Positions 96 through 17,654 of a stretch of 23,272 nucleotides of DNA are shown piece after piece (position 1 is the stretch's first letter; each line of letters begins with the position of its first letter). Origin of the DNA: a virus. A model generated the notes under the pieces. The model was not told where the DNA came from. It did not search any database and saw nothing but the letters and a program-made list of their open reading frames with translations. The stretch lies in the IMG/VR virus record IMGVR_UViG_3300022413_000042, positions 1 through 23,272 of that record; one strand, written 5' to 3'. A program made the position numbers and the translations under genes.

Positions 96-650
96 GTGTT
101 AGCTGTGGCTACTTATGACACTACCGGTGACGCTCCCGTGGATGCCACACTCGACCCAGGCGGTGGCAATGAGACGGCGTTTAGTGTGGCTCTTATCGAA
201 AGCACCAATGCCCGGTCATCCTGTGCCTTTTTTTACATCGTCAATCCACCATCCGGTACATTCGATGTTGAGTGTACTTTTGGCGGCGCCACCATCGCTA
301 CGGCGATTGCTTTCGCTTACAACTTCGAGAATATTGACACCTCCTCACCCATTGGTGACACGGACAGTGCCGATACAAGCAACGCCGACAACATGTCATT
401 GTCGATCACGACCACCTATCGGGTGCCATTGATCATGGGTATCTGGACCATGTTCAGCACCGATACGATCGGTTGGGATTCGCCGATGATCGAGGATCGA
501 GATCAGCTCATTACGGACACGATTATGGGCATCGCCTTAGATGCAACCGAAGCGATCCCCAGCACTGCGGTTACGGTTTCTTGTTCGACTGACGGCGGTG
601 ATAACGACGCATTCAGTTGCGGCGCGGCGATAGAGATCGTAGGGCCGTAA
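96..650 (+). CDS. Virion/tail appendage-like beta-sandwich protein (5' part out of frame or missing)
   Basis: The product from the first available start (GTG at 96) is 184 aa, but the same frame is open and protein-like from about 36 and has no start codon there. The gene therefore probably begins upstream, off the window and across a frame break near 38. The sequence is rich in T, S, D, G and short beta strands, with no signal peptide or membrane segment. The segment around residues 55-85 (IVNPPSGTFDVE, then GGATIATAIAFAYNF and a DTSSPIG stretch) resembles the beta-sandwich lectin-like modules of many environmental phage tail proteins. Function is inferred from composition and from its place at the end of a virion block. 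No ribosome binding site precedes the GTG, which supports this being the C-terminal part of a longer protein. Confidence 0.6.
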   Translation: MLAVATYDTTGDAPVDATLDPGGGNETAFSVALIESTNARSSCAFFYIVNPPSGTFDVECTFGGATIATAIAFAYNFENIDTSSPIGDTDSADTSNADNMSLSITTTYRVPLIMGIWTMFSTDTIGWDSPMIEDRDQLITDTIMGIALDATEAIPSTAVTVSCSTDGGDNDAFSCGAAIEIVGP

Positions 651-697
651 CAGGAGAGATGTTGGGTGACGGCCGCGTGATTTTCTTTTGCCTGTAG

Positions 698-728
698 CTT
701 GACCTAACCACTTGTTTACGTCCAAATA
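698..728 (+). promoter_or_regulatory. Possible CTTGAC-type promoter upstream of the 774 gene
   Basis: CTTGAC at 698-703 lies in the 123-bp gap 651-773, 76 bases before the next start codon. It shares the heptamer GCTTGAC with the sites at 9877 and 10261, which sit at a similar distance from what follows. The -10 region (around CAAATA, 723-728) is poor, so this is a weak call. Apart from it and the ribosome binding site of the next gene I see nothing in this gap. Confidence 0.3.
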
Positions 729-773
729 GCTGCGGCGATTTTGCTCATTTGACTTTTACCAAGGAGAAAACAC

Positions 774-1139
774 ATGACACGAGCCCCCCGCAAAACTACC
801 CGTGCAAAAAAAGCCCCGGCCGCCCCGGAGAATCCGGGTGATGCGCGCCTTCTGTCGAACTTCGGTGTCATCCATGAAGCTGTTCGCGATAACACTCTGA
901 GTTGCATTGTCGGCGTGGCCGTTCTGGAGGACGGCAGGATGATCGACATGTTCGGGACAGCCGGCAATCAGCTCTTTGAATGCGCTATGCTGGTGCAGCA
1001 CCAGAACTTATGCGACAACATGCGCGCGCTTCAACAGCGGCGCATAGCCCAGCAGCAACAAGCTCAGCAACAAGCCGCGCTCGATGCGGCCAGCAACCTG
1101 AAGCCGAAGGCCGCTACTCGGAAGAAGGCGCAGGCTTAG
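774..1139 (+). CDS. Small basic-tailed phage protein of unknown function
   Basis: The product is 121 aa and starts at ATG 774 behind a strong AAGGAG site. Residues 1-20 are rich in K, R and A (TRAPRKTTRAKKAPAAP), and the last 15 residues are again basic (KPKAATRKKAQA). Both tails look like flexible nucleic-acid-binding or packaging tails. The core (about residues 25-80) is a compact alpha/beta stretch containing GVAVLEDGRMIDMFGTAGN, reminiscent of short phage proteins of unknown function. Residues 85-105 are Gln/Ala-rich and probably helical. There is no signal peptide or membrane span. Its 3' end overlaps the oppositely oriented lipoprotein gene tail to tail by 26 bases. I do not recognise a named family. 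Confidence 0.75.
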   Translation: MTRAPRKTTRAKKAPAAPENPGDARLLSNFGVIHEAVRDNTLSCIVGVAVLEDGRMIDMFGTAGNQLFECAMLVQHQNLCDNMRALQQRRIAQQQQAQQQAALDAASNLKPKAATRKKAQA

Positions 1140-1362
1140 GGGCGCAGATCACCTTGCGAGCAGCATTGTTCGGCCGGATCTGATTGATCGTCCCTAGGGT
1201 GTCCGAGACTTCCGGACGTCCTTTGACGTATTTGTAGGTGATCCGTTTGGACTGAGTGCAGTATAGGCGCTTGGCTACCATAGCGTCTATGCCTGCCTCG
1301 ACCGGGCCATGAGAGCACCCGGCCAACACAAACAGTGCGAGAAACGGTAGTATTCTCAGCAT
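1114..1362 (-). CDS. Small outer-membrane lipoprotein, candidate outer spanin-like or exclusion protein
   Basis: The product is 82 aa, with a hydrophobic signal peptide (MLRILPFLALFV) ending in a lipobox LAGC. C16 would be the lipidated cysteine, and the +2 Ser favours outer-membrane sorting. Two more cysteines (about 35 and 73) could form a disulfide, and the tail is Pro-rich (APKPAPSSE). The second of two in-frame ATGs (1362 rather than 1368) is chosen because the GGAAGG site lies about 8 bases from it but only 2 from the first. The mature C-terminal pattern (D, then T-x-x-Q-I, then N-N-A, then I-C) resembles small lipoproteins found beside endolysins in alphaproteobacterial phages, some treated as outer spanins. 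It is the only - strand gene within the left arm and has its own promoter-like site, like a moron gene. A superinfection-exclusion lipoprotein is the main alternative. Confidence 0.72.
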   Translation of the reverse strand: MLRILPFLALFVLAGCSHGPVEAGIDAMVAKRLYCTQSKRITYKYVKGRPEVSDTLGTINQIRPNNAARKVICAPKPAPSSE

Positions 1363-1424
1363 TTTCATATCCTTCCGTCAGCGAAAAGTGCAATGACATT
1401 GTAAACGGCGCCGCTTATTGCTAA

Positions 1425-1453
1425 ATCATCACGCGGAGCGCCGCTCTGTCAAG
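1425..1453 (-). promoter_or_regulatory. Promoter for the antisense lipoprotein gene
   Basis: On the - strand, TTGACA (1452-1447, preceded by C to give CTTGAC) is followed by a 16-base spacer and GATGAT (1430-1425). That is a perfect -35 and a 4/6 match to the sigma-70 -10. Transcription would start near 1418 and leave a leader of about 55 bases before the lipoprotein ATG. The site lies just upstream of the endolysin start (1478), so it reads away from the lysis genes. Confidence 0.55.
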
Positions 1454-1477
1454 CTACTCCGAGAGGAATTGCAAACA

Positions 1478-2194
1478 ATGAAAGAATCAACCCGGCGTAT
1501 ACAGGAAGCACTCGTCCGCCACGGGTTCAATCCGGGCCCGGTCGACGGCTTCATGGGACCTCGGACAGAGAACGCCATCCGCGCGTTTAAGCGCTCCATC
1601 GGGTTACTCGATCGCTCATATGTTGGCCCGCTGACCAAGGCGGCGCTGTTCAGAGCGAATGTGGGCCGCCCGGCACCCGCTCAGCTCGATGATCTCCCGT
1701 GGATGAAGCGCGCGATGTCGTATCTCGGGCTCAAAGAGTACCGCGGTTCGAAACACAATCCGAAGATCCTCGAATGGTGGGTCAAGATCCGCATGGGATT
1801 CACCGATGACGAGACGCCGTGGTGCGCTGGGTTCGTCGGAGGCGTGCTCGAAGAGCTCGGCATCCGGTCGACACGGTCAGCCGCGGCGCGCTCCTACCAC
1901 TGGAAGCGGTGGGGCCGCGTCCTGAAGGAGCCGTGCGTCGGCGCCATCGTGGTGTTCTGGCGGAAGAAGCGCAAAGGGCCTTACGGACACGTCGGGTTCG
2001 TTGTGGGCCGTGATCAGCATGGCAACCTGATGGTGCTGGGCGGCAACCAGGGCAACGCGGTAACCATCAAGCCGTTCGGCCTGAACCGCGTGCTTTCATA
2101 TCACGTGCCGACCTCCTATACTCCGCCGGAGATAGGATTTGACGCGCTCTCTGTCGTTAACTCAGATGGCAGGGTATCGCAAAACGAAGCTTAG
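1478..2194 (+). CDS. Endolysin: peptidoglycan-binding domain plus TIGR02594/CHAP-like peptidase
   Basis: The product is 238 aa from ATG 1478, behind GAGAGGAA. A TTG at 1418 in the same frame is less likely because the protein homology begins after 1478. Residues 5-60 form a PG_binding_1 repeat (IQEALVRHGFNPGPVDGFMG, then ENAIRAFK). Residues 75-215 match the TIGR02594 family, an NlpC/P60-CHAP-like cysteine peptidase or amidase. WCAGFVGGVLEELG supplies the likely catalytic Cys, GHVGFVVG the His, and GGNQGN the usual closing motif. There is no signal peptide or membrane anchor, so export to the periplasm would depend on the holin encoded 13 bases downstream. It would cleave host peptidoglycan at lysis. 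The last 20 residues are an unstructured extension. Confidence 0.93.
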   Translation: MKESTRRIQEALVRHGFNPGPVDGFMGPRTENAIRAFKRSIGLLDRSYVGPLTKAALFRANVGRPAPAQLDDLPWMKRAMSYLGLKEYRGSKHNPKILEWWVKIRMGFTDDETPWCAGFVGGVLEELGIRSTRSAAARSYHWKRWGRVLKEPCVGAIVVFWRKKRKGPYGHVGFVVGRDQHGNLMVLGGNQGNAVTIKPFGLNRVLSYHVPTSYTPPEIGFDALSVVNSDGRVSQNEA

Positions 2195-2207
2195 AAAGGA
2201 GAACCTA

Positions 2208-2414
2208 ATGAGCAACATTGATACTGGTGGAACAGGCATCAACCCGCCCGCCAAATCCAAGATCAACTGGGCACAGATGCTCGGTATCGGTGCAATGATA
2301 CTCACCTATTTCGGCATCGATCTCCCGCCTGAGGTGCAGGCGGCCGCAGCTACGGCTATCGGCTCTGCCGTGATGGTCTTGACTTGGGTGTTCCGCACCT
2401 TCTTTACCGGGTAG
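2208..2414 (+). CDS. Holin-like small membrane protein
   Basis: The product is 68 aa, starting at ATG 2208 behind a strong AAAGGAG site. An upstream in-frame ATG (2139) lies inside the endolysin gene and is rejected. A polar N-terminus (to about residue 20) is followed by hydrophobic segments around WAQMLGIGAMILTYFGI and AAAATAIGSAVMVLTWVF, separated by LPPEVQ. It ends in a short basic tail (RTFFTG). This two-segment layout, with the Pro-rich turn after FGIDLPPE, is typical of small holins of rhizobial and related phages. The position right after the endolysin supports the role of making membrane lesions that release it. The assignment rests on size, topology and context rather than a catalytic motif. 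Confidence 0.78.
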   Translation: MSNIDTGGTGINPPAKSKINWAQMLGIGAMILTYFGIDLPPEVQAAAATAIGSAVMVLTWVFRTFFTG

Positions 2415-2424
2415 CTCCGGTCCT

Positions 2425-2448
2425 GCCGGCCGCCTTCGGGCGGCCGGC
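2425..2448 (+). terminator. Perfect 10-bp hairpin with TTCG loop after the holin
   Basis: GCCGGCCGCC (2425-2434), loop TTCG (2435-2438) and GGCGGCCGGC (2439-2448) form a perfect stem with the extra-stable UUCG tetraloop. No T-run follows (CACTCTCT). It may therefore be a pause, partial terminator or mRNA 3'-end stabiliser rather than a full intrinsic terminator. Confidence 0.5.
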
Positions 2449-2469
2449 CACTCTCTAGGGACGCGAGAG

Positions 2470-2865
2470 ATGGCCACAGATCCGGAAGACGAATGGACTT
2501 TCGCCAACATCTGGCGCGAGACATGGACCCGGGACAACCTCGGTCATCTGGTTCTCTTCATCAAATGGAGCCTGCTGGCCGAACTGCCCATGATCTGGCT
2601 GACCATGCTCGGCCAGGTGGATGCGTTTGCGTTCAGCCCGGCCGCGCTCCCCGGGCCTATTTGCGGCGCCGTAGCGGTGTTCCTCCGCGAGCTGACACAA
2701 GTTCAAGCGACGCAATTCGATCACAATTATTTGAGGGGGTGGCCTGGCGACCGGTACGACGGGCCCGAGAAAAAGGCGGTTTGGCGCCCTCACAAAGCGA
2801 TGGAAGCAATTGCACCAATTACAGGAGGTTGCGGCATAAAAGCGCTGTTGATCGCGGTGATTTGA
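2470..2865 (+). CDS. Multi-pass membrane protein of the lysis region
   Basis: The product is 131 aa from ATG 2470, with only a weak purine stretch (GCGAGAG) as ribosome site. The N-terminus is acidic and aromatic (EDEWTFANIWRETW). Hydrophobic segments follow at about residues 27-47 (LVLFIKWSLLAELPMIWLTML), 52-70 and the extreme C-terminus (KALLIAVI). A DNLGH motif (residues 22-26) and a later RELTQVQ recall the spacing of D-x-x-x-H and RE or KE motifs in small phage and bacterial membrane proteins of the YfiM/lysis-cassette kind, but that link is tentative. It lies between the holin and a terminator, so it is probably transcribed with the lysis genes. Accessory holin, pinholin partner or exclusion protein are all possible. 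Confidence 0.72.
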   Translation: MATDPEDEWTFANIWRETWTRDNLGHLVLFIKWSLLAELPMIWLTMLGQVDAFAFSPAALPGPICGAVAVFLRELTQVQATQFDHNYLRGWPGDRYDGPEKKAVWRPHKAMEAIAPITGGCGIKALLIAVI

Positions 2866-2904
2866 GCTATCATACGAGGATCCGGGTATCAACTGAGCAC
2901 GGCG

Positions 2905-2939
2905 GCCGGCTACCCCCCGGAGGGTGCCGGCATCTTTTT
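2905..2939 (+). terminator. Rho-independent terminator closing the lysis unit
   Basis: GCCGGC (2905-2910), a bulged T, ACCC, loop CCCGGA, then GGGT and GCCGGC (2926-2931) form a 10-bp stem with one bulge. ATC and five T residues (2935-2939) follow directly. It lies 40 bases after the stop of the multi-pass membrane gene and separates it from the mini-gene cluster beginning at 3003. The rest of the gap 2866-3002 shows nothing else convincing. Confidence 0.8.
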
Positions 2940-3002
2940 ACCGTTTGGCGATTTGGTTATGCGCATGTCGGGGGCAGAAAAAGAGAACGGAAACATGTGC
3001 TT

Positions 3003-3218
3003 ATGACTGAAGACACAATAAAAACAGTCACTGAGTGGCTCCTGAGCCAACACACGATCGTCATAATTCTGATCGGCGTGAACTACATTCAGTGGAAGGA
3101 GCGAACGCGTTTGCTGAAGGCAACCCTTGATGCCGCTCGATATTTGGGTACAGTAGACCGATCTTTGCAACACATGATACAGATCCTTCAGATCCGGTCG
3201 GCAGGAGACAAGGGATGA
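3003..3218 (+). CDS. Small single-span membrane protein
   Basis: The product is 71 aa. ATG 3003 is preferred over an in-frame GTG at 2997; both have only a weak purine-rich site (GAGAACGG). An acidic N-terminus is followed by one membrane segment (about residues 17-33, HTIVIILIGVNYIQW). The basic KERTR after it predicts an N-out/C-in topology, and a helical tail follows. Its stop overlaps the next start (ATGA at 3215), so the two are translationally coupled. Candidate roles are holin partner, antiholin or spanin component. The topology argues against a classical inner spanin. No family is recognised. Confidence 0.6.
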   Translation: MTEDTIKTVTEWLLSQHTIVIILIGVNYIQWKERTRLLKATLDAARYLGTVDRSLQHMIQILQIRSAGDKG

Positions 3219-3415
3219 ACCTCTCGAATTGGTTCGCGTCGCTCAGAAAAACGATGAGCGCCCCGGCAGTTGCCGAAGAAGAGTTGGCGCAGGCGAGGAG
3301 CAAACTGGCGAACACAGAGCTGGAGCTCGTGGAGCTGTACGAGAAGACAGCTCGATCCGCTGAACCGCCGTCCAATGTCATCCGGCTCGACAGCGCCAAA
3401 GCTGTGAAAGGATAG
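3215..3415 (+). CDS. Short coiled-coil protein
   Basis: The product is 66 aa and starts within the stop codon of the membrane gene before it. Residues 15-48 (AVAEEELAQARSKLANTE, then LELVELYEKTA) are a strong amphipathic or coiled-coil helix. The ends are polar, with a basic C-terminus. There is no membrane span. A similar helix with the pattern KLA-x-T-x-L-x-L recurs in the product of the gene at 3657, so the two may be diverged duplicates. Function is unknown, but it belongs to the same co-transcribed mini-gene block. Confidence 0.6.
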   Translation: MNLSNWFASLRKTMSAPAVAEEELAQARSKLANTELELVELYEKTARSAEPPSNVIRLDSAKAVKG

Positions 3416-3419
3416 TACG

Positions 3420-3653
3420 ATGTCAGCCCTGTTGGCGGTTCTGGGATTTTTCAAGGCGTTGCTTGGCTTCGCTGAAGAACGTGAGCGCTCCGGCCAGCTT
3501 GAGCAGGCCCGCCAGGGCGGCGCGGCGGAAGCTGCGCAAAAGGGCTCCAAGGAGGTCGACGAGCTGGTGCTCGAGGCCGAAGAGGCGCGTGACAACGTCG
3601 ACGACAGCGAGGAAGCCATACTGAAGGACCCGGACAACCGGGGAGCGGGATAG
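3420..3653 (+). CDS. Small amphipathic/helical phage protein, possibly lysis-associated
   Basis: The product is 77 aa from ATG 3420, behind AAAGGA. The N-terminus is hydrophobic (MSALLAVLGFFKALLGF), followed by a charged helix rich in E, A and Q and a C-terminal DPDNRGAG. This layout, including the final DP-D-NR motif, is common among short proteins near endolysins in proteobacterial phages, where some are proposed to be inner-spanin-like. The hydrophobic stretch is short and contains Lys, so membrane insertion is uncertain. It lies 4 bases after the previous gene and 3 before the next. Confidence 0.65.
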   Translation: MSALLAVLGFFKALLGFAEERERSGQLEQARQGGAAEAAQKGSKEVDELVLEAEEARDNVDDSEEAILKDPDNRGAG

Positions 3654-3656
3654 GCC

Positions 3657-3842
3657 ATGCGTCTGCTCATGCTCATAATCGGGAAGCGCCAGAGCGCAAG
3701 CGTGGAGAAGGCCCATGACGATATCCGGCGCGCGGCCAGGAAGCTGGCGGCCACCAAGCTCGATTTGAGCCTTGAAGTTCAACGGCTGCTCGCCGATCAC
3801 GGCATGAAGCGCGCACCGCAGCGGAATGATGCACGAACCTGA
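3657..3842 (+). CDS. Short helical protein, possible paralogue of the 3215 gene product
   Basis: The product is 61 aa from ATG 3657, preceded by GGGATAGG. A hydrophobic start (MRLLMLIIG) leads into a long basic helix (VEKAHDDIRRAARKLAATKL, then DLSLEVQRLL). The helix core aligns without gaps with that of the 3215 product (KLAxTxLxL plus an acidic pair upstream). The C-terminus is basic and loose. It is the last member of the packed block 3003-3842. Short length and biased composition keep confidence moderate. Confidence 0.55.
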   Translation: MRLLMLIIGKRQSASVEKAHDDIRRAARKLAATKLDLSLEVQRLLADHGMKRAPQRNDART

Positions 3843-3848
3843 TACGTG

Positions 3849-3876
3849 TTGTTGCTCAAGCCGAGGAGTGCTATAT
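3849..3876 (+). promoter_or_regulatory. Possible promoter for the following virion block
   Basis: TTGTTG (3849-3854), a 16-base spacer and CTATAT (3871-3876) lie in the 85-base gap 3843-3927. The -10 equals the CTATAT consensus described for rhizobial housekeeping promoters, while the -35 keeps only TTG. The position just before a new run of virion genes is sensible. Confidence 0.4.
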
Positions 3877-3927
3877 CGTATATGGATCTGATCCTGGCAG
3901 GCTCCCAGCTTTTAGGCGGCGAAATCA

Positions 3928-4536
3928 ATGTCTCCAAATTTGGTTGTGATTCTGTGCATTGTTTTCGTCGTTGGAACGGTAGCAGGTCTTGCTATGGCGG
4001 CGACATATAGGAGCACCCAAATGGCGAATATCGTAACTAGTTTAGCTGACAATGTCACGATCACGGCGGCTTCCCTCAACCTGCAGCAGGGAGTCCAAAA
4101 GGATCTACTGGTTTGCCCAGAGATCGACAATGGGTCGGGCACCGTGTTCAACAGCATCAAGATCGTGATTTCTTACTCAAATTTGCTGCCTGCGGGTGTA
4201 TTGGGGAGCTTTTTCATAGGGGCGCAGCTAGAAGCCCAGGATCAGAATCTTAATTGGGTAACCACGCCGCTGACCCAGTTCTCGGCGCTGCGTTTATCAG
4301 ATCAACCCCTGAGCCGGGTGTTGGTGATGCAGCCAAATATCGACACGTTCAACCTGGGCGTGGATGATAGTCTATTTCCCCTGGATCGTGAGATATGCCG
4401 AGTTAGCCGTGTGCAGGGAACGCTGCCCGACAGCAAGATCAGGTTGCGGTTCTCAATCGTCGACGGTGATCCTGCCGGACCCGCGGGATTCGACGAGATT
4501 ACGATTTCAGCGGAGGCGGAGAGATACAGTGTATAG
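3928..4536 (+). CDS. Beta-rich virion protein with two candidate starts (3928 or 4021)
   Basis: From ATG 3928 the product is 202 aa and begins with a hydrophobic segment (PNLVVILCIVFVVGTVAGLA). From ATG 4021 it is 171 aa and wholly soluble. The 4021 start has a textbook AGGAG site at 8-base spacing, whereas 3928 has only a weak GGCGG. I therefore think the structural protein starts at 4021, but the longer frame is open and its hydrophobic extension looks real. The core is a beta-sandwich-like sequence (MANIVTSLADNVTITAASLN, later FFIGAQLEAQDQNLNWVTTP) lacking motifs I can name. The gene sits upstream of the large fibre-like genes and overlaps the zinc-ribbon gene by 8 bases. Confidence 0.72.
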   Translation: MSPNLVVILCIVFVVGTVAGLAMAATYRSTQMANIVTSLADNVTITAASLNLQQGVQKDLLVCPEIDNGSGTVFNSIKIVISYSNLLPAGVLGSFFIGAQLEAQDQNLNWVTTPLTQFSALRLSDQPLSRVLVMQPNIDTFNLGVDDSLFPLDREICRVSRVQGTLPDSKIRLRFSIVDGDPAGPAGFDEITISAEAERYSV

Positions 4537-9574: not shown

Positions 9575-9874
9575 ATGGTTGATGCGTGGATAACTGAGTA
9601 TTCGCAATTAGAGTTCGACGGCGGGGAGACGGCGGAAGTCCCTCCTGAGCCTGCGCTTGTCGACCAGAAAATCTCTTTCACCACTGCGACGCAATGCGCT
9701 GCATTCGACGTCAGCACCAGATATGTCCGTATAGTGGTAAGCGCAGCCGCACACGTACAATTTGGGGTAAGCCCAACAGCGACTGCAGATATGCAACCAC
9801 TCGAACCCGGTGTCGAATATTGGCGGAGAACTGAGGGCGGGCACAAGATATCATTCTACGACGGCGCCACCTAG
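9575..9874 (+). CDS. 99-aa virion-region protein, paralogue 1 of a tandem pair
   Basis: ATG 9575 follows GAGGG at 6-base spacing. The product is beta-rich, with an N-terminal AWITEY motif, EPAL-DQ-ISFTTAT, AAF and RYVRI strands, and an AAAHVQFG segment. It is a clear paralogue of the next gene product: same length, and by eye about 35 identities in the first 64 ungapped positions. Such small all-beta phage proteins are likely virion decoration or tail components, but I cannot name the family. Codons look less GC-rich than in its paralogue, suggesting an old duplication or recruitment from a related phage. Confidence 0.75.
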   Translation: MVDAWITEYSQLEFDGGETAEVPPEPALVDQKISFTTATQCAAFDVSTRYVRIVVSAAAHVQFGVSPTATADMQPLEPGVEYWRRTEGGHKISFYDGAT

Positions 9875-9877
9875 AAG

Positions 9878-9906
9878 CTTGACTTTTTTCGCTGAAACGG
9901 TGATGT
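9878..9906 (+). promoter_or_regulatory. Promoter-like repeat A (CTTGAC-N17-TGATGT)
   Basis: CTTGAC (9878-9883), a 17-base spacer and TGATGT (9901-9906) lie in the 84-base gap before the second paralogue. The surrounding stretch (GCTTGAC at 9877, ATGTAT at 9903-9908, a CTCTCC tract ending at 9926) is repeated at 10261-10310 with the same order and nearly the same spacing. CTTGAC-N17 matches the rhizobial housekeeping promoter layout. Confidence 0.5.
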
Positions 9907-9958
9907 ATAGGCAGGTTTATCCTCTCCAGGAGCCTTCGTCGCCTAAGGAGGGCCAGGT

Positions 9959-10258
9959 ATGGCTACCGCATGGATCACTGAATACGACAGCTTCCAGATT
10001 GACAACGGCAAGGTCGTCGAAGTCCTGGCCGAGCCGGCTATCGCTGATCAGGAAATCACTTTCACCACGGCGGTTGAGAGCGCCGCTTTCAGCGTGAATA
10101 CCCACTACATCCGCATATACGCGGACGCCGCGGCGCATATCCAAATCGGGCCTGCCGGCACCGCGACGGCGACGATCGCAATGCAGAAGATCGCAGCCGA
10201 AACCGAGTACGTGCGTCGCGTGAACCCCGGCGAAGAGATCTCGCTGGTTACGGCTTAA
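9959..10258 (+). CDS. 99-aa virion-region protein, paralogue 2 of a tandem pair
   Basis: ATG 9959 has a strong AAGGAGGG site. The product shares AWITEY, EPA-DQ-ITFTTA, AAF, HYIRI and DAAAHIQIG with its upstream neighbour. The C-terminal 30 residues have diverged (TATIAMQKIAAETEYVRRVN). No signal peptide or membrane span is present. It is the last protein gene of the + strand arm and is preceded by promoter-like repeat A, so it can be expressed independently. A role as an abundant virion component is inferred from context only. Confidence 0.78.
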   Translation: MATAWITEYDSFQIDNGKVVEVLAEPAIADQEITFTTAVESAAFSVNTHYIRIYADAAAHIQIGPAGTATATIAMQKIAAETEYVRRVNPGEEISLVTA

Positions 10259-10261
10259 GGG

Positions 10262-10290
10262 CTTGACATTTCACGTTAAGACAGCAATGT
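10262..10290 (+). promoter_or_regulatory. Promoter-like repeat B at the arm convergence
   Basis: CTTGAC (10262-10267; with the next base TTGACA is a perfect -35), a 17-base spacer and CAATGT (10285-10290, 4/6 to CTATAT) start three bases after the stop of the last + strand gene. It repeats site A, including the shared ATGTAT and the CTCTCC tract just downstream. No convincing gene follows. The next feature in the same direction is a terminator at 10490, so the transcript would be non-coding. Confidence 0.5.
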
Positions 10291-10296
10291 ATGTAG

Positions 10297-10523
10297 CGTG
10301 TTTTCTCTCCGGAAACCACTGCACCGCCGGGCTGGGCTTCACGCCCCAAAGCAGCGCCTGGTCCGGCGGCGCCTGATCTAGCGAATTAGGCGTAGACAAC
10401 CCCCTTGCATTCTCGTAAGATCCTCTCGCCGACGTCCACCACGTCCGGCACACCGATCAAGAGACACCCCTCCCCGTCTCGACAGACTTAGCGGGCCCTG
10501 ACACGACGGGCCCGCTCTTTTTT
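10297..10523 (+). ncRNA. Candidate structured phage small RNA (about 227 nt)
   Basis: The boundaries come from promoter-like repeat B and the terminator. Visible structure has three parts. The first is a stem CCGCCGG (10324-10330) with CCGGCGG (10363-10369) enclosing a GGGC-TTCAC-GCCC hairpin (10334-10346). The second is a hairpin GCCGACGT, loop CCACC, ACGT-C-CGGC (10428-10449). The third is the terminator stem. The 5' end carries TTCTCTCCG (10303-10311). This is exactly complementary to nine bases at the ribosome site of the - strand DUF2800 nuclease gene, and its CTCTCCGG (10305-10312) to the polymerase gene site. A 29-codon ATG frame at 10287 exists but starts in the -10 region and lacks a ribosome site. 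A trans-acting regulator is inference; transcription is unproven. Confidence 0.45.
10490..10523 (+). terminator. Strong rho-independent terminator
   Basis: AGCGGGCCC (10490-10498), a 9-base loop and GGGCCCGCT (10508-10516) form a perfect 9-bp stem followed by C and six T residues (10518-10523). The T-run is on the + strand only. It overlaps the last two bases of the stop codon of the convergent - strand gene. On the - strand the same stem has no T-run, so it would at best slow leftward transcription. Confidence 0.88.
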
Positions 10524-11025
10524 ATGCGCTGTTGGATTCGCCCCAGTAATTATCCGCAACCTCGTTTGCGGCGTCGACAATCCAGCCCCAATGATCTTCG
10601 TATTGAGGACCGCCATCAAGGAGGAGCGAGAGCGCGGTGAAGATGGCATCCAAGGCGATTAGGCACTTTCCCGGCAAATGCCGTGTACGTATCGCATAAT
10701 CCGGCCCCTTAAGACGCAACTCCAGCTTTTTAGCAAGATTGGGCAGCGCCGTAGACGACCCCGGCTTACGGATCGACTTCAGTGCCAGCGCCGCATAGCC
10801 CGCGACGTCCCGCCAGTGGTCGAGCTCCAGCGCCTGACCGGTCACAACGCGACTAATCTTGAGGCAGATCATATCAACCGCCTCGCGCATCTCGTCGTTC
10901 CAACTCGACCCCGCCATCAATGCGCGCGCCACGCGCTTCATGTGCTGCGAGAACTCTGCATTGTCGTGGAAGTCGCCGTGCGTGGTGTGGCGCTCTGCAA
11001 TCAGCGCGTCGCTCTGTGTTTCCAT
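10522..11025 (-). CDS. DUF6378 phage protein
   Basis: The product is 167 aa from ATG 11025, behind TAGGAG and 12 bases after the primase-helicase stop. Residues 10-88 match the DUF6378 pattern: RHTTHGDFHDNAEFSQ, then MREAVDMICLKISRVVTGQA and DHWRDVAGYAALAL. The conserved HGDF-x-x-N, D-MI-x-KISR and DHW-D-x-x-GYA motifs are all present. This family is found next to replication genes in many phages and its biochemical role is unknown. Residues 95-167 (including LPGKCLIALDAIFTALSLLL) form a helical extension I do not recognise. It is the last gene of the - strand arm and ends at the convergence terminator. Confidence 0.82.
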   Translation of the reverse strand: METQSDALIAERHTTHGDFHDNAEFSQHMKRVARALMAGSSWNDEMREAVDMICLKISRVVTGQALELDHWRDVAGYAALALKSIRKPGSSTALPNLAKKLELRLKGPDYAIRTRHLPGKCLIALDAIFTALSLLLDGGPQYEDHWGWIVDAANEVADNYWGESNSA

Positions 11026-11037
11026 CGTGCTTTTCTC

Positions 11038-13323
11038 CTACAGTTGCTCAATGCCATCAGTGGTGTAGCTCTTGGAGCCGACACCGCGGGCCGTTCGGGC
11101 AAGCTCGCCCTTCAGGACCTCGGGGTCGACGCCTGAAACGATCTCTTCTTTCCAGTGATACGCGCGCCGGAATGCCCGGATCTCTTCGGGGTTGCCGCCC
11201 GCCGCCCGGCTACGGAACCCGTCCTTCGCGTCCTTCAGCTTCGGCAGCGTGCGCCACAGCTTGTCGATCAGCCTGCGGCGAGCGTTGTTGGTGACCGTGT
11301 TCTCCAGGCGCTCAGCACGCTCGGCGCTCTCGAACAGATCGGACAGCATGTGTTTGGTGACCAATTCCCCCTGCGCACGTGCAACCATGGCATCTGTAAT
11401 GATGGTGCCAGGCGCCACCGAACTTTCGATCATAGCGTCCTTGGACTCGGTCACAGGCGGGACGGCAGGGTTGAACTTGCTGACGTCGCGCTCCATCAGG
11501 AACTGGTGGATCGCGGCCGCGAGCCCGGCGCCCTGCTTGTTGTAGACGTTCCACAGGCGGTTGTAGTAGCTCTCGCTCTGCTTTTCCTGAGGATTAGCAA
11601 ACACGGCCAAGCGCCTTTCACCCTTAGGTATGTTGAACGCGTCGACGTGATTGGAGAAGACTAACAGGTTGAACCAGATCTGCTCCATACCCTTCCGGCC
11701 GAACTTGCGATTGACTTGCATGTGGGTGGTGCGCGGATCAATGAACGTTTTGATTCGCTCGTACGCCTTATAGTGCGTCATATCGGAGCCGTCATGCGCC
11801 TCCTCAATCACCACCATCTGCCTGCCCGAAGCCCACTCGTTGAAGCCAGCAGACTGGCCGTGGCCGGTGAGCTCCCCGATATCGACGAACTCCACGTTGG
11901 AGTTACCCCACACGATACGGAGAACATCACCGAGCCACGACCGCCCGATCCCGAACGAGTCGTCGGCGACCATGACAACGCCATAGGACCGCGCCCGGGG
12001 GTTCTGAAGCTTGTAAGCCAGCCAGTCGAGGAATGTCATGCAGTCTTCCCCGTCTGGTAACAAAAATTTCATATGCTCAAGGAACACGTCGAGCCCCGCG
12101 GGCTCAGCCGTATGCGCTGGCGGCTGGTAAGTATTCACTATCAACTGGTCATTGCCGACTGGCTCGACACCGCCCCGCCCGCTCTCACCGGGGGCGTACG
12201 GCACCGTCTCGTAGGAAGCGCACTTGGTGGTGTCCTCGTCCGCAACGAATGCCGACTTGCCCGCCAGTGTGCGCTTAGGGTTGTCTGTCGTAGGCATGTG
12301 GATGCGAACGCTGGCGAACATGTCGCCGAATTCTTCAAGCGCCATGTCGTAGTACTTGCTGCCGGCGGCCAGGGCGTGTAGGTCGCACACCCTCCGGCCA
12401 TCACGGACGTAGACGTAGCGCTGCTGGATGAATGGCAGCGGATCGTACCGGCGGGCTGTCGGGCCGCCCTGACCGCTGACCCAGTCCAATAGGTCGAAGT
12501 CCTTGCAATGTTCATGGAAACATTTGAACCCGCGGGTGTACTTCCAATCGCCTTCGCCACGGCCTAGCGGACTGTAGCGCGCCGTGTCGTCGCCGGTGGT
12601 GTGCTCGTCGCAGTTCGGACATTCTATGATCAGCCATTCGTCTTCGTCCTCAACAACGGTGCCGTTGTCGAACAGCCACTCGGCGACCGGGTCCTCGACG
12701 TTGAGCTCAAGCGCCACCAAGTCGGACGTCGTCTTCGTGCGATCGCGCGGCTGGACCACGCCAATCTGCACATTGAAGGCCTCGGCGATCTCCTCCAACG
12801 TCTCGAAGACGATCTCAGGCGACCACGCGACCAGCTCAGCTTTGAAGTTGTCGCGCCCGGGCTTGAGGTTGACTGAGCCGGGGATACGCATCAGGCGGTT
12901 GAAACCTTTGGCGCCAGCATCGGTATATCCCGCGTCAGCGATGGCGTCCATAAGCGCGGCGAACTTGTCCAGCTCCTCGGTCGGCTGGATCAGGTAGCCC
13001 CACTGGTACGAACCTGGCGACGTCTCGAGGATCCACGAGGGCTCCACCGGTGGGTCCTCGACCTTGGATCCGATGTCGTCCAACACCATGCAGTGAACCG
13101 CACGGCAGTCCTCCGAACGCCGGCGCAAGGGGTCCTGCTCCACCACCGTGGAGATATTGAAGTAGAGCGCGGACTTCTCCCGCTCCAGCATGCGTTGGAG
13201 CCGGGGGTTGTCGGCCGGCATATTTATGAAGCCACGCTTTGCCTGCTTCGCAATGAGCGCGGTCTCGCCCTCAGGGACGCCATCGAAGACGGCGGCTATG
13301 AACTCCTCGGTGGACACAGTCAT
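11038..13323 (-). CDS. Primase-helicase: AEP/RepB-like primase fused to DUF5906/D5-type helicase
   Basis: The product is 761 aa and starts at ATG 13323, overlapping the preceding stop (ATGA). Residues 75-175 form an AEP/RepB-like primase region: LDDIGSK (81-87) as the likely catalytic acidic motif, then ETSPGSYQWGY and FNRLMRIPGSVN (141-152). A zinc site follows (CPNC at 235-238, CFHEHC at 268-273). The C-terminal half is a D5/VapE-type SF3 helicase ATPase. Its Walker A-like motif ADDSFGIGRS (453-462) has Arg461 in place of the usual Lys, Walker B is MVVIEEAH (503-510), a sensor-like segment is LLVFSNHVDA (553-562), and KGERR (567-571) is the arginine-finger region. The protein would prime and unwind at the phage fork for the adjacent polymerase. 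Confidence 0.88.
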   Translation of the reverse strand: MTVSTEEFIAAVFDGVPEGETALIAKQAKRGFINMPADNPRLQRMLEREKSALYFNISTVVEQDPLRRRSEDCRAVHCMVLDDIGSKVEDPPVEPSWILETSPGSYQWGYLIQPTEELDKFAALMDAIADAGYTDAGAKGFNRLMRIPGSVNLKPGRDNFKAELVAWSPEIVFETLEEIAEAFNVQIGVVQPRDRTKTTSDLVALELNVEDPVAEWLFDNGTVVEDEDEWLIIECPNCDEHTTGDDTARYSPLGRGEGDWKYTRGFKCFHEHCKDFDLLDWVSGQGGPTARRYDPLPFIQQRYVYVRDGRRVCDLHALAAGSKYYDMALEEFGDMFASVRIHMPTTDNPKRTLAGKSAFVADEDTTKCASYETVPYAPGESGRGGVEPVGNDQLIVNTYQPPAHTAEPAGLDVFLEHMKFLLPDGEDCMTFLDWLAYKLQNPRARSYGVVMVADDSFGIGRSWLGDVLRIVWGNSNVEFVDIGELTGHGQSAGFNEWASGRQMVVIEEAHDGSDMTHYKAYERIKTFIDPRTTHMQVNRKFGRKGMEQIWFNLLVFSNHVDAFNIPKGERRLAVFANPQEKQSESYYNRLWNVYNKQGAGLAAAIHQFLMERDVSKFNPAVPPVTESKDAMIESSVAPGTIITDAMVARAQGELVTKHMLSDLFESAERAERLENTVTNNARRRLIDKLWRTLPKLKDAKDGFRSRAAGGNPEEIRAFRRAYHWKEEIVSGVDPEVLKGELARTARGVGSKSYTTDGIEQL

Positions 13324-13550: not shown

Positions 13551-15556
13551 TTGCGATACCTCTTGCCGGCCCAGAGGCTGCAATTGAGCGGCAGCCCTTC
13601 GGACCATTCGGGGTTTGTCAACATGACCCAGCGCAATGTCTGCTCGCATTCATCGACCTCGTCATCGAGCACTTCACAGAGGATCTCGTCGTGGGTGTGG
13701 CCAACTACTGGCCAATCATACTCCTCCATCAAGCGCAGACCGCCCTGGAGGATCTCGGCGGACACGGCTTGGGTGGCGTTCTCAGCCAGCAGACCACCGT
13801 AGAGATCGACACGGGGCCACTCGGTCTCGCCGGCCGCCGGCTTCCAGTTCGCTTTGATGCAAGTCAAGTCGCCACCTTGCAACCGTGGTTGCGGATATGC
13901 AAGAGCTTTGCCGGAGGGAAGAATGCACCACAGGGTATCCCAGTCTTCGTCGTAGACGTAGAACAGGCGTTTGGCATCGTAAGCATAGCCCGGATGCTTC
14001 ATCGCCTTTTTGGCCGCGCCTATGCAGGCGTACCAGAAATTCGGGGCCCACTTGTTGGCGCCACGCCAGCGTTTTACTACCTTGTCGCCAAATTCGTCTT
14101 CGATGTGGATGCCGTAATTGCGTGCCATCGCCTGAAGCGCTCTCAGTGCGCCTTGGAAACCGAGACTGAGTATGGCGACCTTGCCGATCTGGCGGTCGTC
14201 CATGCTCATGCGCGCGGCTTCGCGTTCATACATGTCAGGCAGATCAGGGTTGGCGTCAATTTCGCGGTACTCGTCGAGGATATGGTCAGCCTTGGCCAGC
14301 CACGGCAGAACGCGCGCCTCTATCGAGGACCAGTCGCCGCACACGAACTCGTGATCAGGCGCGGCCATAATCGCCGGGCGCAGCATGCTGGCCAGTGTGT
14401 CCATCACGTTGTGGAATGCCTCGCCCTTGATGATATTCTCACGTACGGCCTCGGGGTCTTCAGCGCAGTCGCGCGTAAAATTATGGACCTGTAACCCGAG
14501 GGATGAGAACCGTCCGGTTTGGACAGCGCCGTCTTTCATATAGGCGCCGCGGACTCGGTCGTCCTCCTCGTCCGCGCGCATGCACATGGCAGTGAATTTC
14601 GATGTCGATGACCGCCCAGCCTCGTCGATCAGCTCGACCAGAGAAATGACGGCGGGATCGAACTCGTGGTCCGACAACAAGATGTTGGAGCGCGCCGTCT
14701 TGTCGAGCGACTGCTTCTTCGTGGTCTCCTTCGTTTTGCGGTCGGTCTTGTAGCGGGTGAGCATCTTGCGGAGCACGTCATCTTCCGCGGCATAGGGTTC
14801 GAGATAATCCTTTAGCCGCTGGAACTGGCGCGGTCGGGTGATGATACCGCCGGTCAACTCGGCTAGCTCTTCGCCGATGGCGGCGGTCTCTTCCTCGGCA
14901 TACTGGGCGGCCGCGGCGGCCAGGTCGAAGTCGATCAGCAGCCCCCGATCGTTGATCTTTTCGGAGATCACGTAGTCAGCGAACTCTTCATCAGTCAGTG
15001 GCGGCGACATCTCCGCAGCCGCGCGCTCGACCTCAACGTCGATCTCGCAGTAGTCGTACAGCTCCTGCAGCAGGACGGGGTCGCGGTTGAACTCGCCCTC
15101 CTCGAAGTTGATCTTGCCATTCTTCCAGGGGATGCAGAGCTTGCGGATCAGCTGCTTGCCGGCGAGTGACTTCTGAGTGCCCAGCTTGAGCGCCTTGCCC
15201 AAATTCTCAAGCGCGCCCGGCAGCGCCCGGCGGCGCGCTTGGGCGGCGGTGCAATAGAAGGCCTCGAGCGGAGGTTCAGGCACGTCGAACTCAGGGCACA
15301 GCACGTACCACGTGATCAAGCGTTCGAACTGGGCGTTGTGCGCATGGATGCTGCGCGGCGCGCCGCGTTCAAAGATCTCGATAATGGGTTCGGGGACCGG
15401 CTGGCCAGGGACCCAGAGCTGCACAGGGTTGTTGTTGATGGCCCAGCCGGCACAGTGGATGCCCGTCGACAGGCTGGTAGCGTAATTGTAGGCGCCGTGC
15501 AGGATCAGGTCGACACGGCCGAGGGTCTCGTAATCAAGGTGAAGGACGTCTATCAT
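13547..15556 (-). CDS. Family A DNA polymerase with 3'-5' exonuclease domain
   Basis: The product is 669 aa from ATG 15556, behind CCGGAGAG. A 16-residue upstream extension is rejected because the exonuclease motif begins right after this Met. Exo I is LHLDYET (D8, E10), Exo II HNAQFER (N74 with Glu78 where Asp is usual), and Exo III Y169-CEI-D173. The polymerase palm has motif A GDWSSIEAR (D408, E413), motif B R455-QIG-K459 with Leu463 and Phe467, and motif C THDE (H622, D623). There is no 5' nuclease domain, as is common in phage versions. Leu463 aligns with E. coli Pol I Phe762. The gene is separated from the SSB-like gene by a 104-base leader containing a perfect hairpin and is coupled to the zinc-finger gene downstream. 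Confidence 0.95.
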   Translation of the reverse strand: MIDVLHLDYETLGRVDLILHGAYNYATSLSTGIHCAGWAINNNPVQLWVPGQPVPEPIIEIFERGAPRSIHAHNAQFERLITWYVLCPEFDVPEPPLEAFYCTAAQARRRALPGALENLGKALKLGTQKSLAGKQLIRKLCIPWKNGKINFEEGEFNRDPVLLQELYDYCEIDVEVERAAAEMSPPLTDEEFADYVISEKINDRGLLIDFDLAAAAAQYAEEETAAIGEELAELTGGIITRPRQFQRLKDYLEPYAAEDDVLRKMLTRYKTDRKTKETTKKQSLDKTARSNILLSDHEFDPAVISLVELIDEAGRSSTSKFTAMCMRADEEDDRVRGAYMKDGAVQTGRFSSLGLQVHNFTRDCAEDPEAVRENIIKGEAFHNVMDTLASMLRPAIMAAPDHEFVCGDWSSIEARVLPWLAKADHILDEYREIDANPDLPDMYEREAARMSMDDRQIGKVAILSLGFQGALRALQAMARNYGIHIEDEFGDKVVKRWRGANKWAPNFWYACIGAAKKAMKHPGYAYDAKRLFYVYDEDWDTLWCILPSGKALAYPQPRLQGGDLTCIKANWKPAAGETEWPRVDLYGGLLAENATQAVSAEILQGGLRLMEEYDWPVVGHTHDEILCEVLDDEVDECEQTLRWVMLTNPEWSEGLPLNCSLWAGKRYRK

Positions 15557-15660: not shown

Positions 15661-16458
15661 TTAGCCGGTGCGGCGACGCCGACGCTTCGGAGCGTCCTCA
15701 GCCGGGGCCTCGGCAGCTTTCTCAACCGGATCAGCCTTGCGCCGCGTGCGCTTGGGCTTCTCTTCCGGCTCGACTTCCACGACCTCAGCTTCGACGACGT
15801 CACCAACGTCGCCGTCCTCGATCACTTCGACCTCTTCGTCTTCGAGATCTTCAACGCCAGCGCTGTTGCCGCCCGCATCAAGCCAATCGACAATCTTGAA
15901 CACAGGCGTGTAGATCTTGCCGTACTTCTTGTGCTTGTAATGGTCGTTGCGCAGGTGGAACACCGGGATCGGCGCCGCGCCTGCTTCGATCTGGGCGAGG
16001 ATCTCGTCGATCAGCGAGTTCAGCTCGCGGACGCCCGACTTCGAGTTGACCTTGTAGACCACCTCGAGGCCTTCATCCTCGCCAGACATGCACTTCATGC
16101 CGATGCTGAGCTGATCGCCCCAGCTCCCGCCTTCGCGATGAGGCAACTCGCCTTTGAGCGGGATCTCGGCGCCGGCGTCGTACATGACTTCGTCGAGCGG
16201 GCCGCCCCCGCGGGCGTCCTCGTTGGTGGGCCAGCAGATGTAACCCTGCGAGATCGAAGCGGGGTTGGCCGCCCATGTGCTGTCGTCTTCAGGGACTTCC
16301 TCTTCGGCACCATACGACCACTCGCCGTCTTTCGCCATCTTGAGGTAGATCGAGCCGTCGGACGACCGCGGGCGGGTCTGCTTGAAGCGCTGCAGTCGTG
16401 TCTGCAGGGCTCCGGTGGCGAGGGCCTTGCCCTCGAATGGTGTGACTTGGTTGCTCAT
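15661..16458 (-). CDS. Putative ssDNA-binding protein (phage replication cluster)
   Basis: The product is 265 aa; ATG 16458 overlaps the stop of the DUF2800 gene (ATGA). Residues 1-200 are a mixed alpha/beta domain with landmarks WAANPASISQGYICW, GGSWGDQLSIGM, NSKSGVRELNSLIDEIL, PIPVFHLRNDHYKHKKYGKI and TPVFKIVDWLD. This is the pattern of phage proteins found immediately upstream of family A polymerases and treated as SSB-like. It is followed by a highly acidic stretch (about 203-235) and a basic tail ending RRRRRTG. Acidic C-terminal regions are typical of SSBs, but the added basic terminus is not. Assignment to single-strand binding is by position and architecture, not by a definite OB-fold motif. 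Confidence 0.65.
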   Translation of the reverse strand: MSNQVTPFEGKALATGALQTRLQRFKQTRPRSSDGSIYLKMAKDGEWSYGAEEEVPEDDSTWAANPASISQGYICWPTNEDARGGGPLDEVMYDAGAEIPLKGELPHREGGSWGDQLSIGMKCMSGEDEGLEVVYKVNSKSGVRELNSLIDEILAQIEAGAAPIPVFHLRNDHYKHKKYGKIYTPVFKIVDWLDAGGNSAGVEDLEDEEVEVIEDGDVGDVVEAEVVEVEPEEKPKRTRRKADPVEKAAEAPAEDAPKRRRRRTG

Positions 16459-17636
16459 GCCTTGATTCCTTTCAGCTTCTCCAGTTTTGACGTCGTGTCT
16501 CCCACCGCCTCACGCGGGTCATCCGCAGGCACCAGGGTCGTTCCAGAGGAGTGCGACGTGATCAGCTCCTCAAGCTTCGCGGTGCGAATTGTTTTCGCCC
16601 GTTTGGAAGATGTGTTGGCCTTCATCCACTTCTCGGCTTGCGCCGGCGAGATGAGCTTGACGGGGTACATGTCCACCTTGGTCATGCGCATGTTGCGCAG
16701 CTTCTTGGCGGCCTCAGCCTCGTCTTCCCATTTGCGAGTGGCGCGCTTCTGTACCAGCTTCCAGCCAGCGATGACAGTGCCCCGTTCCAGCTCTGCGTGC
16801 GCAAGCTTTTTAACGGCGTTGGCCCATTCAAGGGCCTCCTCAGCCAACGGCAGCAGTACAGCCAGGTCGCGGCTGGGCATGTGCTCGTTGGACGGTTTGC
16901 CCTCGGCGGCCTCCTTGGCCAGCATCTGGACCTTGCGGATCTTCTCGTGTTTGGCCGGGCACAGTGCCTTGGCCGGGCAGAAGGTACAGTGCGAGCCCTC
17001 GCGCAGCGGGACGTTGGTGTCCTCGACGCAGGCCCACGCGGCGATCAGGTCCTTCTCGAACTCGTCGACCTCCGCATGTGTGAACTGCCAGACTTTAGGC
17101 TCATGGTCGAAACCGGGCTGCACGATGATCCCGAAAATCTTGTCGTGCTTGAACATGTTGGGGTAGTCGTGGCGGGCGGCGGACGCACAGAAGAGTAGCT
17201 GCTTGTTGTCCTCCGCGTCGACTTCGACGCCGCGCCCGAACTTCCAATCGAGGATCGCCGTGTACTCGTCGGTCTGGCCGATGACATCGGCAGTACCGAA
17301 GCTGTCAGGGATGCCTGGGAAGTTGACCGTCTTTTCAAGGAAGAACTCGAACCGCTCATCGAACAGCTTGTCGAACGCGGAGACCGCCGGCACGATCATC
17401 TCCTGGTAAAGGTCCTTGGTGACCGCACCCCACCGGGTCTCAAGGCCGATCACGTCTTCCTGGTTCTCGAATTCGTCGTTGAGGATCCGCTCGCACGCCT
17501 CGTGCAGCATGGAACCTTCGGCCGCATACTCGGACTCTTCGTTTGGAACGTCTTTGGAAAGGGTATAGGACCTCGGGCAGGCGATAACGCGCGCTGCGCT
17601 GGATGACCCCACGGTGTTGGAATGAAGGGTGGTCAT
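16455..17636 (-). CDS. DUF2800 family Cas4/RecB-like PD-(D/E)XK nuclease with Fe-S cysteines
   Basis: The product is 393 aa from ATG 17636, behind CGGAGAG. Nuclease motifs occur in order: GSMLHEACE (H45), FGTADVIG (D117), ILDWKFG (D130, K132) and QLLFCASA (Q146). Four cysteines, one near the N-terminus (AC20PRSY) and three later (HC217TFC220PAKALC226), match the split Fe-S cluster pattern of Cas4/AddB-type exonucleases. The C-terminal 150 residues are helical and basic. DUF2800 proteins are common in phage replication modules beside an SSB-like protein and a family A polymerase. DNA-end processing or recombination-dependent replication is the likely role. It is the first gene after the terminator at 17750-17791, so a promoter should lie in 17637-17749. 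Confidence 0.88.
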   Translation of the reverse strand: MTTLHSNTVGSSSAARVIACPRSYTLSKDVPNEESEYAAEGSMLHEACERILNDEFENQEDVIGLETRWGAVTKDLYQEMIVPAVSAFDKLFDERFEFFLEKTVNFPGIPDSFGTADVIGQTDEYTAILDWKFGRGVEVDAEDNKQLLFCASAARHDYPNMFKHDKIFGIIVQPGFDHEPKVWQFTHAEVDEFEKDLIAAWACVEDTNVPLREGSHCTFCPAKALCPAKHEKIRKVQMLAKEAAEGKPSNEHMPSRDLAVLLPLAEEALEWANAVKKLAHAELERGTVIAGWKLVQKRATRKWEDEAEAAKKLRNMRMTKVDMYPVKLISPAQAEKWMKANTSSKRAKTIRTAKLEELITSHSSGTTLVPADDPREAVGDTTSKLEKLKGIKA

Positions 17637-17654
17637 GGTGGTGTTCTCTCCGTT

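Follow-up and report, generated by a model that had tools for sequence, protein, structure and literature searches.

What does the gap between the two converging gene arms of this phage encode? The window, meaning the whole stretch of 23,272 nucleotides that was analyzed, is a 23-kb IMG/VR virus record, and the gap under study spans positions 10259–10523. The rightward arm, up to 10258, carries late, structural-type genes, and the leftward arm, running from 23 kb to 10522, carries replication genes (DUF6378, primase, DNA polymerase A, and others). The terms "early" and "late" are labels read from the gene content and direction of the two arms, not from expression. Phages must halt early-protein production when turning to particle building, and the known ways of doing so are transcriptional or depend on proteins such as T4 RegA.

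Features of the gap

The initial annotation placed in the gap a promoter-like site (CTTGAC at 10262, N17, CAATGT), two hairpins (10324–10369, with an inner hairpin, and 10428–10449), and a strong terminator (10490–10523) on the same strand. The promoter-like site is present as described, both hairpins lie in the sequence where they were placed, and the terminator appears in both sequence and predicted fold. Absent from that annotation was a further hairpin at 10298–10319, which carries a conserved box at 10300–10311. The features of the locus are as follows.

10262–10292, + strand: putative small-RNA promoter (CTTGAC at 10262–10267, N17 at 10268–10284, CAATGTAT at 10285–10292)
10298–10319, + strand: predicted 5′ hairpin presenting an anti-Shine-Dalgarno loop (RNA fold: GUG/CAC outer stem, UUUCU/GGAAA inner stem, CUCC loop)
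10300–10311, + strand: invariant box GTTTTCTCTCCG, identical in three phages and the reverse complement of the early-gene start motif CGGAGAGAAAAC
10324–10369, + strand: 14-bp hairpin with a small inner hairpin (arms 10324–10337 and 10356–10369), no T-run
About 10428–10449, + strand: second small hairpin (fold), specific to the window and without a counterpart in relatives
10490–10523, + strand: intrinsic terminator (9-bp GC stem 10490–10498/10508–10516, 9-base loop, C, T6 at 10518–10523)
9878–9930, + strand: a further, degenerate unit preceding the second 99-aa gene; its box has decayed to GTTTATCCTCTCC and it lacks a terminator
9575–9874, + strand: first copy of the 99-aa gene, without a match in Pfam or PHROG; in the relatives G001 and G002, its homologues lie next to the unit
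9959–10258, + strand: second copy of the 99-aa gene, sharing 49% identity with the first
17637–17651, − strand: start region of the early gene 16455–17636 (GGAGAGAACA-n5-ATG), the best box complement in the window
10522–11025, − strand: convergent early DUF6378 gene; its start region, AGGAGAAAAGCACGATG, pairs only partially with the box

For the predicted 230-nt transcript, the folding energy is −85.7 kcal/mol, compared with a mean of −68.9 kcal/mol for 200 dinucleotide shuffles (z = −3.57), and none of the 200 folded as well. A generic promoter and terminator scan called neither of the flanking signals: the CTTGAC promoter was missed because CAATGT is a poor sigma-70 −10 element, and the 10490–10523 terminator because its loop is one base above the scanner's limit. 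This terminator probably ends both the small RNA and read-through from the late operon. Against Rfam 15, the window gave no match above the gathering threshold (best sub-threshold score, 15.2 bits versus 41). Within the gap, the generic scan reported a sigma-70-like site at 10393–10421 (TAGACA-N17-TAAGAT, 9 of 12), which is not conserved in relatives; a transcript from it could be about 95 nt long and use the same terminator.

The unit in related phages

Searches with the primase and DNA polymerase retrieved two informative relatives, both of them uncultivated phages: G001 (IMGVR 3300013896_000008, 40.8 kb) and G002 (IMGVR 3300027822_000014, 57.5 kb), with protein identities to the window of 60% and 70–72%, respectively. 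A third record, IMGVR 3300022201_000003, is identical to the window over the shared part and adds no information. Among the matches listed, searches by DNA polymerase or by the 99-aa family returned nothing as near as G001 and G002, and among isolated phages there was no DNA match to the window and a DNA polymerase identity of at most 38%.

Conservation had been anticipated at the junction between the DUF6378 and 99-aa genes. The corresponding convergent DUF6378/structural junctions of G001 and G002 are only about 45–75 bases long and contain neither the unit nor any such structure; conservation was found elsewhere, with the unit of both relatives immediately preceding the 99-aa-gene homologue on the late strand. 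Because the relatives' junctions are short and lack the unit, these genomes place the conserved unit in the neighborhood of the 99-aa gene and not at the DUF6378 junction. Its order in the relatives is CTTGACAT...CGATGTAT or CGATACAT, followed by GTTTTCTCTCCGGAAA or GTTTTCTCTCCGAACA, and the unit closes with a strong terminator hairpin that has a T-run. The 31-base pattern CTTGAC-N17-YRATRYAT occurs with zero mismatches at 10262 and 9878 in the window, at 14392 in G001, and at 34102 in G002, and a pattern scan found no other zero-mismatch copies in these genomes. It is by this recurrence at the relatives' units that the promoter-like site is judged real.

The distance from promoter to box varies among the three phages (about 9–44 bases after ATRYA), so that DNA alignments of whole units are of poor quality. 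Folding places the box in a stem of GUG/CAC in the window, GUGAC/GUCAC in G001, and a longer GUGUGU-type in G002. The flanking stem sequences thus differ among the three phages, and GTTTTCTCTCCG is the sole invariant part of the hairpin. Its codon wobble positions are invariant as well, and no reading frame across it is conserved on either strand in the three phages, where the short frames differ and lack ribosome sites. Taken together, two diverged relatives repeat the same-strand series of promoter, 5′ hairpin with its invariant loop box, and terminator, with stems that vary and no ORF in common, which supports the initial proposal of a discrete noncoding RNA. At the sequence level, the unit has what is expected of a small-RNA gene, namely a conserved promoter of its own, an intrinsic terminator downstream on the same strand, and no conserved reading frame. 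Two coding alternatives for the box were considered and rejected. Read as a minus-strand gene start, it lacks a common start codon and frame in the three phages, with a 60-codon frame in G001 only; as a micro-ORF or leader peptide around FLSG, it lacks a ribosome site, synonymous variation, and, in G002, an ATG.

The proposed transcript length of about 227 nt is less certain; the relatives' units end at their terminator after about 110–125 nt. The window hairpin at 10324–10369 has GGTCCGGCGG in common with the G001 terminator and GCCTGATCT in common with the G002 terminator, and by this resemblance it is a probable decayed counterpart of the relatives' terminator hairpin. Since it has no T-run, the window RNA probably extends to 10523. 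In the window lineage, the 99-aa gene and the unit were apparently duplicated, leaving the intact unit last. The degenerate copy (9878–9957) retains an exact promoter and may now serve solely as the promoter of the second 99-aa gene.

These arrangements bear on two readings that assign the unit no role in trans. In one, it is a cis-acting leader or attenuator, comprising promoter, hairpin, and conditional terminator, for the downstream 99-aa and tail genes. The unit of G001 and G002 does lie directly upstream of a 99-aa gene on the same strand, as does the degenerate copy in the window, but the window's intact copy has no same-strand gene downstream, only the convergent DUF6378 gene, and the match of the box to early gene starts (below) would have to be a coincidence; we regard a cis-acting role as quite unlikely. 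In the other, hairpins and terminator merely form the 3′ end of the late transcript, with a promoter-like site there by chance. The terminator would indeed stop late transcription, and a noncoding tail requires no function; however, the relatives conserve both promoter and box in a unit that does not stand at the operon end, making this a very unlikely account.

Pattern scans for further copies of the unit gave 25 and 23 matches in IMG/VR, among which only the already-known units look real, and 3 matches in GTDB genomes, all unrelated.

Complementarity of the box to early gene starts

The reverse complement of the box, CGGAGAGAAAAC, corresponds to the translation-start region of early genes in G001 and G002, where the start motif takes the form CGGAGAGAAAACATG. 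Examples are ...ACACGGAGAGAAAACATG in G002 (start 48743) and ...CCCAGGAGAGAAAACATG in G001 (start 31065). With at most one mismatch allowed, matches to TTTTCTCTCC number 21 (late strand) versus 1 (early strand) in G001 and 14 versus 2 in G002. Shuffled versions gave means of 0.5–1.2 and maxima of 2–6, and the reversed control gave 1/0 and 0/0 (late/early). The late-strand matches are mostly start regions of early-strand genes. Similarly, with the unit itself excluded, G001 has 20 occurrences of GGAGAGA plus a following start codon on its early strand and 1 on its late strand; the corresponding counts in G002 are 19 and 0. By gene, complements to at least 10 of the 12 box positions were present in G001 at 9 of its 53 early genes and at none of its 13 late genes, and in G002 at 9 of 45 early and 1 of 32 late genes, counts that are conservative because they depend on a simple gene caller. 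Mean predicted duplex energies were about −17.5 kcal/mol for motif-bearing early starts (the G001 mean including the unit's own antisense site) versus −8.5 to −9.6 kcal/mol for late starts, and one G002 early start would pair over 14 bp (−23.2 kcal/mol). Likely targets include DNA polymerase, a thymidylate synthase (called ThyX by inspection of its sequence), and a DUF2800-type gene in G002, as well as many small genes without an assigned function. In G001, core replication genes often lack the motif. More distant polymerase relatives have no such shared early start motif.

Part of this complementarity is generic, in that it fits any Shine-Dalgarno sequence, and we therefore considered that a real small RNA might act mainly on host mRNAs, a generic anti-Shine-Dalgarno loop lowering host translation, with phage early starts matching the box because they use a strong standard Shine-Dalgarno sequence. 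Alphaproteobacterial anti-Shine-Dalgarno RNAs have many host targets (PMC10746234), and GGAG accounts for part of the match. Against this reading, the match runs past the core over AGAAAAC, and late genes in the same phage escape even where their starts contain GGAG. Moreover, when GGAG was kept and the remainder shuffled, the patterns rarely attained the observed number of sites with at least 10 of 12 positions, which equals or exceeds every control: 14 in G001 (control mean 3.3, maximum 12) and 13 in G002 (mean 4.4, maximum 13). Mainly host targets are, in our estimation, unlikely.

A further reading operates on DNA. A phage protein would bind double-stranded GGAGAGAAAAC at early starts, and in reverse at the unit, in the manner of mycobacteriophage L5 stoperators. 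Many asymmetric sites in a single orientation are indeed what stoperators and the start-associated sequences (SAS) of mycobacteriophages present (PMC3203893), but the sites here fall on the Shine-Dalgarno sequence and stop at the start codon, and the unit's copy sits within a conserved RNA hairpin between promoter and terminator. We consider DNA-level sites highly improbable.

The reading that we favor, with reasonable though limited confidence, is that the unit encodes a trans-acting anti-Shine-Dalgarno small RNA, produced alongside the late genes, which keeps the early genes of its own phage from being translated and would thus be an RNA equivalent of T4 RegA. The unit would be transcribed on the late strand from its own host-type promoter, yielding an RNA that exposes UCUCUCC in its 5′ hairpin and ends at the intrinsic terminator. 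The loop and its 5′ flank would pair with the common early mRNA start region, CGGAGAGAAAAC-AUG, covering the ribosome-binding site and stopping translation. Early proteins would be shut off because the RNA covers early start regions, and late genes, which lack the motif, would go on. The comparison shows the conserved unit, its invariant box, the complementarity of that box to many early starts in the two relatives, and the early/late asymmetry; we infer RNA production, its timing, pairing in the cell, and repression by pairing. If correct, an RNA that reads a common early-gene tag would be a compact alternative to the known means of shut-off, and gain or loss of the tag would place a gene under the RNA's control or free it.

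Within the window, a complement of at least 10 of 12 positions occurs at 1 of 15 early genes (start 17636), an enrichment not above chance. The remaining early starts have AGGAGAAAA-type sequences, for which the predicted pairing spans 8 bases or includes a bulge. The window covers only part of the early region, and function there therefore rests on homology; the same role in the window's own phage is assumed on that basis, with weaker predicted targets in the visible part.

The main late-strand exception is the late gene at 774–1139 of the window, whose start region resembles the early motif (AAGGAGAAAACACATG); in G001, one late gene, with its start at 11846, carries the motif (AAAGGAGAGAAACGTG). 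At the other end of the G002 record (435–4252, L035), a second early-strand gene block has a longer repeated leader, catgacctagaggagagac..., before its start codons.

Known regulators and a possible cluster K parallel

A close parallel in design is the alpha-r14/NfeR1 family, in which NfeR1 blocks a target's translation start through anti-Shine-Dalgarno loops on variable stems (PMC10746234). Shared with this family are the anti-Shine-Dalgarno motif in a hairpin loop, freely varying stems, an alphaproteobacterial RpoD-type promoter, a length of about 120 nt, and targets at translation starts. Unlike the three hairpins of that family, each with CCUCCUCCC, the RNA proposed here has one hairpin with UCUCUCC, is phage-encoded, and apparently targets the phage's own early genes. 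The three CCUCCUCCC hairpins that define alpha-r14 are not found, and the score against Rfam RF02344 is 15.8 (cut-off, 58.8). T4 RegA is likewise a single regulator of many early phage mRNAs, about 30 in number, and works at their translation starts (PMC3014915), but it is a protein repressor whose targets lack a clear common motif, whereas an RNA and a common complementary motif are proposed here. The P1/P7 c4 RNA and the P22 sar RNA, as presented in a 2025 review (PMC12197685), are encoded by phages and act as antisense blocks on a phage ribosome-binding site, with c4 working via loops; they differ in having a single mRNA target (ant), compared with the roughly twenty dispersed genes proposed here. 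Among the phage RNAs considered from that review, none controls multiple genes of the encoding phage via a common motif.

A parallel of a different kind is offered by cluster K mycobacteriophages, which carry 11–19 copies of the 13-bp SAS, GGGATAGGAGCCC; four K1 phages also have one reversed copy away from any gene start (PMC3203893). The 2011 authors left open that SAS bind an RNA (PMC3203893), and a 2024 paper called their role unknown (PMC11373665). Common to SAS (PMC3203893) and the present motif are a conserved asymmetric sequence that includes the Shine-Dalgarno element and stands in one orientation at many nonstructural gene starts and, in K1, the lone reversed copy. The sequences are unrelated (GGGATAGGAGCCC versus GGAGAGAAAAC), so the motif here is no SAS and only its position is analogous, and the SAS papers cited here propose no antisense RNA.

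We located the reversed SAS (GGCCTCCTATCCC, + strand) in Angelica (L172 9135–9147), Anaya (L173 31871–31883), and Adephagia (L174 30683–30695). It lies in a large noncoding gap before gene 97 in Anaya and before gene 93 in Adephagia, and inside annotated gene 92 in Angelica. A possible interpretation is that the K1 reversed copy belongs to an antisense RNA against SAS genes. Late transcription in Adephagia appears to begin between genes 92 and 93 (PMC11373665), and the antisense copy would there head the late transcript, whose start is not mapped to the base; we treat this as a lead, not proof. A TTGACC-N17-TATCCC reading could put the K1 reversed copy inside a promoter. With at most two mismatches, no anti-SAS copy was found in cluster K2, K3, K5, or K6 or in Microbacterium cluster EF. 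The general proposition that phages tag early genes with a shared ribosome-binding sequence, that one late-made antisense RNA shuts down the early program, and that this arose independently here and in cluster K1 is accordingly tentative, and we hold it to be doubtful as a whole. Even so, the reading offers a testable idea for mycobacteriophage SAS.

Two smaller observations concern K1 phages and a Microbacterium phage. In K1, a strong conserved hairpin immediately precedes the reversed SAS, which is close to where late transcription begins. In AnnaSerena, the Microbacterium phage, upstream of gene 20 (L179 4322–4334; record positions 11321–11333), GGGGTCCTTGTCT faces AAGGACAGAACCATG, and from their sequences the two may possibly form a local hairpin that hides the ribosome site.
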